Below are positions 2,934-22,267 of a DNA stretch of 64,000 nucleotides, piece by piece. The notes below the pieces were generated by a model that saw nothing but the letters and a program-made list of their open reading frames with translations, had not been told where the DNA came from and made no database searches. The stretch's first letter is position 1; the number at the start of each line of letters is the position of its first letter. The DNA comes from Naegleria lovaniensis. Its lineage: Eukaryota > Heterolobosea > Eutetramitea > Acrasida > Naegleriidae. Location: contig NW_025407861.1 of NCBI RefSeq assembly GCF_003324165.1, positions 310,001 through 374,000 of the forward strand, written 5' to 3'. The position numbers were made by a program, and so were the translations under genes.

Positions 2934-3357
2934 ATTTAATCATAATTCCAGTCACGTTCATAAGCGCTGTGTGATATTTGTTGATCGAGGTCTATAAATT
3001 TCAACCAAAGGATGAGATTTGTTCAAACGCAAGTTATATTGCCTGCAAACGAAGAGGTTAAATTGTTTCGAATCATGGGATAATACAATCGAGCATGAAA
3101 ATAAATTTTATTCGTAAAACAATTCATGTTGTTGTAAGGGTATATAAATCTTTGCATAGATTCCAAAAACAAAAATATATATAAATATTTGTATTATTAT
3201 TATTACCATATGATACAGATTTAAAAACATATAAAACTAAGGTTTTTTACCATATATAGATATATAAAAAAGTGTATTTTCATTGAAAATTCCTGAAACA
3301 ATTTCTTCATGCAAGTCACTCTCGTCCGAATCAAAATCAAATACACATTCGAATCAT
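2934..3357. other. Intergenic, AT-rich, no gene seen
   Basis: This is the 3' flank of the glycosidase-like gene. It contains AT-rich runs around 3160-3280 and no open frame of note. It leads into the decayed region. Confidence 0.6.
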
Positions 3358-3993: not shown

Positions 3994-4184
3994 CTCATAA
4001 TGCCATCGAACAAGAACTCTTTATTCACTGAATGACGTTGGAATGATCCTCAATGACCAACAAGAAAAACGAGTGAGCAAGACAATTGAATGGATGACAG
4101 TGTAGATTCAGATGATCAACTTTAGAATAATAGCATCAAACACTTTAAGATGACCATCCATTCCTTGGCAAGGCATAAAGATCA
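3994..4184 (+). repeat. Dispersed repeat, segment b, copy 1
   Basis: This 191-bp stretch matches the reverse complement of 22088-22267 almost base for base, apart from two small indels (about 5 and 6 bp) and a few substitutions. On the minus strand it reads partly as protein (MPCQGMDGHLKVFD), and the other copy keeps this frame open longer, so the repeat probably derives from coding sequence of a mobile element. It lies about 1.1 kb upstream of the Fanzor fragment at 5276. Confidence 0.85.
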
Positions 4185-5275
4185 TAGCTCTCACAACTTC
4201 CCAAGAATGGACCACTTGAGATTTGGCTCCTTCTTTCATAATGAGGATTGAGGGGCGGAAGAAATCGCCCATCCTAGCTCACAGCTAATAGCCCTGATCG
4301 GGGTGATTGCTAAAACACTGCTGAATTCAAACTTCAGCAACAACAGCCACCGAACAATCCCGAAAAATTTTAATTCCAGTAATTGATAGATTTATTGTTG
4401 CTTGAAACAGTTGTATGGCCAAACTTTATTCACAACAAGGGGCTGACTTGGCAACGTTTTGCGTGACATGATGTCATTAATTCAAATACCTTGTTGGGAG
4501 AAGCTTGACAATATGTATCTCCAACAAAAATTTCCATCATTCTTACATAGACATCCACGATCTATCACTAAAAATCTAGGTCCTCTCAAAGCTTTGAGAA
4601 GTATATATGATAGTACATTATCTAGACTTGTTAAACGAAATTGATGGTTTTGAGGAACAAACATGTATGTTGAAAAGATTTGTCAACGTTTTAGACAAAT
4701 GACATGGACGTTTTTTCGTCCATTATTGCTGTTACTAGTTTCGTTTTTCCCGTTATTAATTTTTCGCAATTTTCTGTTACTTGTTTACGAATGTTTTCCG
4801 TCCCTCAGCCAAGTGCGGGCATACAGCGACACCAACGACAACCACAATCATTAACAACACCCACATTAGAATTCAATGCTATTATAATATCGTATGTTTG
4901 TATTGTAATGATTGAGTTTTCAGCAAAGAAAATCAAGGAGTGGATAAGGAATTGTAAAGGTGTTCACTTTTCCATGAACAGCAAGTTATTTAAATTGATA
5001 GGGTTTCAATAAGTCATTCAAAACTGATAGAGTTTCAACCTTCTCATCCTCCTACTAATCCATCTCTTGCACAAAGCATCATTCCATTCTGGGATGAGTT
5101 TTCACAACAAGTATCGGATAAACTTTGAACATGTGCCAGAGAGATTTTCATGATTGTATTCAGTACAACAATACGGGATGCACTGATGGATGGTTCAACT
5201 TTTCTCAATTCACTGTCATTGAATCCAAGCCAGGGTTTGATGTTCCACTCAATGTTCAAAACTCTATAACAGCAA
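4185..5275. other. Gene-poor decayed stretch between repeat and Fanzor fragment
   Basis: Only short open frames of 60-102 codons occur here, without recognisable motifs and often overlapping in different frames. The most protein-like is 5125-5346, which overlaps the start of the Fanzor remnant in another frame. I see no intact gene. The stretch may be the eroded N-terminal half of the Fanzor element, but I could not match it to the second Fanzor relic. Confidence 0.4.
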
Positions 5276-5512
5276 ATGTGGCTTTGGAAAACTCAAAAAA
5301 GCCACCTCAGCTCAAGAAGGCAAAGAAGAATCAAAAGGCGGCTTAACGAAGCGTATACATCCAAAACTTGCTCATGTTGTGGATATATGTATACGGTTGG
5401 ATCATCCGAAGTGTTTTGTTGTCCATCATGTGACTCAATTTTTGACAGAGATATCAATGGAGCAAGAAATATTCTTCTTCGATTCCTTACTACTCATAGA
5501 ATTAGTTTTTGA
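5276..5512 (+). pseudogene. Fanzor (TnpB-like RNA-guided nuclease) C-terminal fragment: zinc ribbon and RuvC-III
   Basis: The 78-codon frame carries the hallmark end of TnpB and Fanzor proteins. It has an EAYTSKTCSCCG motif, a second CPSC pair 22 residues after the first (a Cys4 zinc ribbon), and the RuvC-III motif DRDINGARNI with its catalytic Asp. A Lys/Arg-rich stretch precedes it, as in the family. Fanzors are the eukaryotic homologs of transposon TnpB, which cut DNA guided by an omega-RNA. Here nothing resembling RuvC-I or RuvC-II lies upstream in frame, no Fanzor-like start is present, and a full protein would be about 500 residues or more. This is therefore a truncated relic, or less likely the last exon of a gene whose earlier exons I could not see. 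The EAYTSK spelling resembles the IS607-linked Fanzor2 group. Confidence 0.85.
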
Positions 5513-5923
5513 GCACCTTGTGTGCGTTGGGTCCTTTCCCCTGGCTTTAAGATCAGCACTTGTTCGATTTGTTTTGTTCAAATTGTTGATTTAAATAAAG
5601 GCGTTAAATCAGGCTGGTTTGTTCCACACCAACTCGCTACCTGTTCCGTTGGGACTATCCAGAGATCTGGTGTCTTAATAAATTAATAAAACGTATTGAC
5701 ATGTGCTCGAATATCTGCTGTGTTTTAAAGCTTATTCAAAATAGGATTAAAGCAAAATAAAATCTGTTATTTTGTCATTGCGGTGTGAATGACTTCAGCC
5801 CCTTTTGCAACAACAGTCGACTGCAGCAATATGTTATTTGAAAGAAGATTCTAGAGCTTGGCGATAAAATTCGGTAGGTGCTGTCACTTGTCAATTTCTC
5901 ATTAAAAAATAACAACAACGAGA
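5513..5923. other. 3' flank of the Fanzor fragment; possible omega-RNA / element end
   Basis: No gene is visible. In TnpB and Fanzor loci the guide RNA usually overlaps or follows the 3' end of the nuclease gene and runs to the element end, so any remnant would fall in about 5480-5760. I cannot delimit it without a second intact copy. The last 150 bases are the 5' flank of the next gene. Confidence 0.35.
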
Positions 5924-22087: not shown

Positions 22088-22267
22088 TGATCCTTATGCC
22101 TTGCAAAGGAATGGATGGTCATCTTAAAGTGTTTGATGCTATTATTCTAAAGTTGATCATCTACACTTTCATCCATTCAATTGTCTTGCTCACTTTCTTG
22201 TTGGTCATTGAGGATCATTCCAACGTCATTCAGTGAATAAAGAGTTCTTGTTCGATGGCATTATGAG
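22088..22267 (-). repeat. Dispersed repeat, segment b, copy 2 (inverted)
   Basis: This 180-bp stretch is the reverse complement of 3994-4184 with two small deletions. On the plus strand it keeps a frame of about 48 codons open (from MPCKGMDGHLKVFDA, position 22097) to a TGA, whereas copy 1 is interrupted. This copy is therefore less decayed. It lies about 0.8 kb upstream, in the Fanzor reading direction, of the Fanzor relic at 21293. Confidence 0.85.

Follow-up and report, generated by a model that had tools for sequence, protein, structure and literature searches.

Does the 80-residue zinc-ribbon reading frame on contig C40 of Naegleria lovaniensis represent a small protein in its own right, a stray bacterial gene, or the remains of a larger RNA-guided nuclease element? 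The window analysed here is the whole stretch of 64,000 nucleotides at C40:310001-374000 (GC 38%) of the 30.69-Mb, 97-contig genome. A first-pass annotation, made from the letters of this window, had assigned positions 5276..5512 to the C-terminal end of a Fanzor protein (zinc ribbon plus RuvC-III), had regarded the copy as truncated, and had proposed that a eukaryotic RNA-guided nuclease element has lived in this genome.

Assignment of the fragment

The plus-strand frame 5270-5512 encodes 80 amino acids and contains EAYTSKTCSCC, CPSC and DRDINGARN, the motifs from which a TnpB/Fanzor origin had been read, and profile searches upheld that reading. PF07282 (Cas12f1-like_TNB) leads the Pfam search with 54.4 bits (cut-off 26.3; E 1.4e-14); the family in second place has E 0.023 and stays under its own cut-off. 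In NCBIfam the best model is guided_TnpB (E 2.2e-10), whose 40.4 bits fall below the whole-protein cut-off of 100 bits, as expected since the query is a fragment. Zinc-ribbon families outside the Fanzor/TnpB group, namely C1_2 and HypA in Pfam and rubrerythrin and HVO_0649 in NCBIfam, all scored under their cut-offs and were rejected. Among solved relatives, the fragment is best matched by L79, a TnpB-like protein of mimivirus (PDB 9b0l; E 2.1e-8). L79 is also the best solved relative of P0001, the intact protein translated from copy L064, although the two are only distantly related (E 6.2e-26, 94.5 bits, over aa 95-485). P0001 exceeds the cut-offs of PF07282 and HTH_OrfB_IS605, with OrfB_IS605 remaining under its own.

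According to Yoon et al. (PMC10711439), Fanzors are told apart from TnpBs by a DPG motif in RuvC-I and by a glutamate placed six residues ahead of the zinc ribbon. The pattern found in L064 is DPG-x139-E-x6-CxxC-x13-CxxC-x4-D, with the DPG at aa 300 and 139 residues before the glutamate, and this matches the Fanzor fingerprint of that paper. A regular-expression search found E-x6-CxxC-x13-CxxC-x4-D retained in the fragment, from which the DPG is absent because the RuvC-I part has been deleted. The relocated glutamate (Ealt) stands six residues before the zinc ribbon in the fragment, in L064, which belongs to a family that we call A, and in L047, which belongs to a second family, B. In the family B open frame the full DPG-E pattern was not found at the published spacing; ALDPG is visible in its translation. 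The pattern [TS][TS]xx-C4 zinc finger-x(5,50)-RD is present in both the fragment and L064.

Extent and parts of the relic

When the window was aligned by blastn with 20 fetched copies of the element, the fragment proved to be part of a longer relic that starts at 4937-4940 and ends in a GGCG at 5600-5603. Its parts are as follows.

4937..5603, plus strand: whole Fanzor-element relic, left over from a 2.07-kb element (blastn with the 20 fetched copies)
4937..5029, plus strand: 5' non-coding remains (alignment and HSP chain)
5030..5341, plus strand: N-terminal coding remains, Fanzor codons ~5-109 (ORF list, alignment)
5341..5346, plus strand: junction of a 989-bp internal deletion, with ~4 bp of filler (HSP chain)
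5342..5512, plus strand: C-terminal coding remains, Fanzor codons 440-495 and stop (genome match, alignment)
5348..5350, plus strand: relocated RuvC-II glutamate (Ealt), six residues ahead of the zinc ribbon (regular expression)
5369..5431, plus strand: C4 zinc ribbon, CSCC ... CPSC (ORF translation, Pfam profile, regular expression)
5444..5470, plus strand: RuvC-III, DRDINGARN (ORF translation, Pfam profile)
5513..5603, plus strand: right end, putative remains of an omegaRNA scaffold (alignment and folds)
5550..5592, plus strand: terminal hairpin of the right end, still foldable (RNA fold)
5604..5625, plus strand: guide position of the putative omegaRNA, in flanking DNA (start of the unrelated flank; TnpB/Fanzor layout)

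Homology to the other copies begins at 4937-4940, which corresponds to element base ~257-261, so the relic has lost its left edge; about the first 257-260 bp are missing, the CCG left end included. The start codon was removed by a 77-bp deletion at an 11-bp overlap (AGAGTTTCAAC). Codons ~5-109 survive only partly in frame, and within them the frame 5122-5346 is identical to aa 37-109 of an intact copy at 58 of 73 residues. The 989-bp deletion then took codons ~110-439, the DPG of RuvC-I among them, and codon ~109 is now joined to codon 440, beyond which the C-terminal 56 residues are identical to those of L064 at 50 positions. Simple 5' truncation of the relic was rejected, as N-terminal remains are present upstream. 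Thus the zinc ribbon and RuvC-III do lie within 5276..5512, but the Fanzor frame runs only from 5342 and the whole relic covers ~4937-5603; similarly, the copy is truncated, as had been said, but this description was incomplete: the left end and the start codon are gone, an internal deletion took RuvC-I, and N-terminal remains are still there. Residues 1-24 of the 80-aa frame (5270-5341) result from reading, out of frame, a piece of Fanzor DNA that lies ~1 kb upstream in fuller copies, and this out-of-frame opening in the N-terminal part may explain why only the C-terminal fragment had been noticed. Within the 168 bases of its C-terminal part, 5 differences are private to the window copy: two are at the deletion junction, and two of the other three change a residue; among the 20 other copies only L068 exceeds it, with 14, and L068 has a deletion junction of its own within the same stretch. 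Judged by its sequence, the window copy is a dead, multiply deleted Fanzor whose left end, start codon and catalytic core are gone.

Other repeats lie close to the relic. The fragment at 3994-4184 has a second copy in the window at 22088-22267 (minus strand) and another near a Fanzor copy at C40:402854. At 4249-4450 there is a repeat of ~200 bp with more than 10 matches, mostly 80-87% identical and on many contigs, which resembles a small non-autonomous element. Two repeat pieces that are ~6 kb apart on C36, C3 and C25 adjoin at 4457-4786, and this stretch looks like another internally deleted mobile element beside the Fanzor relic. A 60-bp stretch at 5623-5682, 20 bp past the right edge of the relic, occurs at three other places (C38, C15 and C17); it came up in a search with window positions 5590-5900 and is not an empty site. 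No tandem repeats were found between positions 3000 and 7500 of the window.

Copies across the genome

The 80-aa query gave 63 genome matches at E up to 1, itself included. Family A accounts for matches mostly at 82-91% identity over residues 25-80 and family B for 11 matches at 44%; the other rows comprise some weaker or broken matches and out-of-frame matches of residues 1-27. Elsewhere than in the window, 25 matches cover at least 36 residues at 82-91% identity, which excludes chance for the Fanzor fragment. PF07282 itself has 45 matches in the genome, 41 of them over its cut-off.

Twenty family A copies, the best 20 matches after the window's own, were taken in 6.5-kb pieces. An uninterrupted 495-codon gene is present in four of these 20 (L054, L057, L061 and L064), and, together with the Fanzor fingerprint of L064, this bears out the proposal that a eukaryotic RNA-guided nuclease element has lived in this genome. 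The first-pass annotation had also suggested looking for intact copies, and their alignment to the window did supply the missing parts and the ends of the element. L064, on C39, interrupts a long minus-strand open frame that is rich in CxxC pairs at its C-terminal side.

Grouped by coordinates, family A forms ~52 clusters, an approximate figure because only those matches of the 80-aa search that belong to family A and lie in the Fanzor frame entered the count, whereas family B, the matches of residues 1-27 and a few that were weak or overlapping did not. A left end, a right end and a zinc ribbon are found together in 22 clusters, among which the window is counted through its inner left piece. 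The others hold a right end and zinc ribbon (six), left and right parts only (two), a right end only (eight), a left end only (11) or a zinc ribbon only (three). One copy, L075 (C36:189773-190233), is ghost-like and keeps both ends as well as a CACTC/GAGTG hairpin. Going by these alignments, family A is a Fanzor2 element of which this amoeba genome contains tens of copies or pieces. Family B, a second Fanzor-like family, comprises loci L047, L048 and L069-L074, with its left end not reached; seven of its fetched copies are 96.9-98.3% identical to L071. In L047 and L048 a 198-codon open frame is followed by one of 360 codons, and these successive frames suggest an intron.

Borders of the element

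When the fetched copies were compared by BLAST with one of their number, L064, a common unit of 2,066 bp emerged (L064:1734-3799), outside which the flanks are unrelated between copies. When 300-bp copy flanks were searched against the fetched loci from L049 on and against the window, there was no match at E 1e-8 and no empty site. The left edge, CCGTTGAAGCC, was found in 17 of 22 sequences (the 20 copies, the window and L075); L056, L059, L060, L066 and the window copy are without a left end, and L063 is without a right end. With CCG included in the search pattern, all 17 of 17 left ends recovered carry it; with CCG omitted from the pattern, 16 places were recovered in 21 sequences, and CCG directly precedes every one of them. 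The base before CCG is A in 14 and G in 3 of the 17 (binomial p for A 2.3e-5, a test chosen after seeing the data). At the right edge GGCG is found in 19 of 21 sequences, the two bases after GG being TG in L051 and CA in L067 instead of CG, and the base after this edge is T in 15 of 21 (p 2.1e-4, again chosen after seeing the data). In the 16 sequences that retain both ends, the two flanks have no base in common in 14 cases and a single base in 2; the CG of the left CCG recurs in the right GGCG in 14. An IS607-type element would show no target-site duplication longer than a core dinucleotide and constant nucleotides at its right flank; here the shared CG may be part of the target or of the element.

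True terminal inverted repeats were not seen at the element edges in the copy comparison. A 12-bp inverted match lies 11 bp inside both edges (L064:1745-1756 and near L064:3777-3788), at 11 of 12 positions in L064 and one base poorer in copies such as L057, L061 and L067. Examined after the fact, shuffled sequences gave a match as good in 14 of 20000 trials with the offset fixed and in 141 of 3000 with any offset allowed, so we regard it as a hint only, possibly of a subterminal inverted repeat.

NlovFz2, the Fanzor2 of N. lovaniensis, was described in 2023 (Saito et al.), and its TAM is given as 5'-CCG in that paper (PMC10432273). If NlovFz2 belongs to family A rather than to family B, the left edge of the element would equal the measured TAM of its nuclease, an agreement of sequence and not the outcome of an assay. 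As no empty site was found, CCG may be element sequence rather than target DNA. Open frames of at least 70 codons occur on both sides in one (L064) of the 16 sequences with both ends; there, the reading frame of an empty site would call for a number of target bases between the flanks equal to 0 mod 3, which fits either CCG as target or nothing added, a result that concerns a single case with its joint within a low-complexity linker. By analogy with the known TnpB/Fanzor layout, the guide would be read from the DNA that follows the right edge.

The right end, from stop codon to GGCG, measures 91 nt in the window as against 141 nt in L064. The window copy is without one unit of a 23-nt near-duplication, which is also single in the intact L061 and in L068, without a 22-nt stretch carrying the CACTC/GAGTG hairpin, which L051 has lost with other breakpoints, and without a few bases of the terminal hairpin. 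Fold z-scores of the right end are all modest: -2.2 and -1.6 for two cuts of L064, -2.0 for the window and -2.7 for L075. Rfam gave no matches over the window at gathering thresholds.

Internal deletions and mobility

With L064 as reference, at least one internal deletion of over 40 bp is present in 9 of 20 sequences (19 copies and the window, deletions within a single BLAST piece not being counted), and the breakpoints differ. L055 also has a deletion but was set aside from this count on account of an N in the junction. The junctions have either overlaps, 0-13 bp long, or filler DNA (4 and 115 bp). The pattern of the copies fits repeated interior loss with decay, and incomplete repair after cutting may be its source.

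A serine recombinase TnpA (PF00239) had no match in the six-frame translated genome at E up to 1, introns not being considered; as a control, the same family was matched in 10 of 14 control genomes. For Y1_Tnp there was one match in the genome, of 15.8 bits and under the cut-off, and hence no significant Y1 transposase. A search for relatives in viral contigs returned 26 pattern matches, none of which was confirmed.

We offer, as a speculation that we ourselves consider rather unlikely, that the Naegleria Fanzor2 elements are nuclease-only elements that spread without a transposase of their own. They would be seated directly behind the TAM of their own nuclease (purine-CCG, usually before T), their guide RNA would read the far side, RNA-guided cutting and repair copying would move or keep them, and broken, relic-like copies would be the by-products of incomplete repair.

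Interpretation

We are highly confident that what remains at this locus is a Fanzor2 element, dead and internally deleted, whose intact form measures 2.07 kb, encodes a 495-aa protein of the RNA-guided nuclease kind, has a presumed guide-RNA right end and bears at its left edge CCG, the putative TAM. Homology, ends, deletions, the CCG edge and the fingerprint residues of an intact copy are what we observed; to these, the model adds an RNA, a guide, cutting and copying that we infer. The intact element encodes this one protein and would end in DNA for a presumed guide RNA, such that the sequence beside the right end would act as guide. By TnpB/Fanzor logic, the nuclease would cut a site composed of CCG and guide sequence that lacks the element, and cutting of the element-free site would favour the keeping or copying of the element. 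The window copy would be incapable of the nuclease role, its left end, start codon and catalytic core being deleted.

The window locus might instead be a working ghost, that is, a locus without a nuclease whose right end is transcribed as omegaRNA and whose guide is lent to the nucleases of intact copies. Such loci have been proposed for Spizellomyces, and ghost omegaRNAs function with SpuFz1, according to PMC10432273; in our data, the GGCG right edge and the terminal hairpin of the window copy are kept and foldable, and L075 provides, at another place in the genome, an example of a ghost-like copy that retains both ends along with the CACTC/GAGTG hairpin. However, a working ghost would be expected to keep both ends, and the window copy has lost its left end as well as the 22-nt hairpin segment of its right end. 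Moreover, with 77% identity to the reference, its right end ranks last among the 39 matches of that search, the first 24 of which reach 91-100%. CCG followed by the first 14 guide bases has no exact genome site besides the locus itself, and sites within 3 of 17 mismatches number 21 besides the locus, as against 15 for the reversed control, the two nearest having 2 mismatches and one of these (on C37) having all 14 guide bases without CCG. We therefore judge a working ghost to be improbable.

Two further readings seem to us less credible still. That the 80-aa frame is a new domesticated mini-protein using the zinc ribbon would accord with its being open and with its retained cysteines, but 24 of the 80 residues are out of frame, no other genome match to it reaches farther than residues 16-80, and the private differences in the 56 C-terminal codons give no sign of selection, in numbers too small to exclude it; we consider this highly improbable. 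A bacterial TnpB, acquired by contamination or recent transfer, would account for the best NCBIfam profile being that of the general TnpB family. Against it stand Ealt in the relic, DPG with Ealt in the intact copy, the presence of copies on many contigs of the genome, and the successive open frames of L047 and L048 in family B, which suggest an intron, and we give this origin equally little credence. A dead, internally deleted Fanzor2 copy is thus the reading that we prefer.

Comparison with known systems

As NlovFz2 was described in 2023, the presence of Fanzor in N. lovaniensis is not news, and the locus is an ordinary one; if NlovFz2 is family A, the relic adds one dead copy to a known family. 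Under the same proviso, delimiting the element and finding that its border agrees with the TAM adds modestly to what was known. The multi-copy alignment provides sharp ends, places at the left edge the TAM that was determined biochemically, and reveals internal deletions whose breakpoints differ from copy to copy. Such copies could be used to test how eukaryotic Fanzor elements spread when they have no transposase.

In PMC10432273, NlovFz2 is a protein of the same kind as that of family A, with an N-terminal extension before the core and a TAM, CCG, that equals the family A left edge; it differs in that the window copy is dead. The same paper states that the N. lovaniensis Fanzor loci 'seem to lack IRs' and a transposase, whereas the family A ends described here are sharp, and any inverted repeat is limited to 12 bp lying 11 bp inside the edges. 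According to one of its figure legends, that paper compares Fz with ghost loci in N. lovaniensis, and the borders may thus be partly shown there already. Ghost Spu-1 of Spizellomyces punctatus, from the same work, resembles the window copy in that the guide-RNA region is kept and the gene lost. Its conserved region, however, spans ~550 nt between two inverted repeats, whereas the window copy is a one-off deletion with its left end absent. Finally, the Fanzor2 proteins of IS607-type elements, as characterised by Bao and Jurka (2013; PMC3627910), share with family A the C-terminal [TS][TS]xx-C4-x(5,50)-RD motif and, going by the copy comparison, the lack of obvious terminal inverted repeats, but are accompanied by a serine recombinase of a kind that we did not find in this genome.
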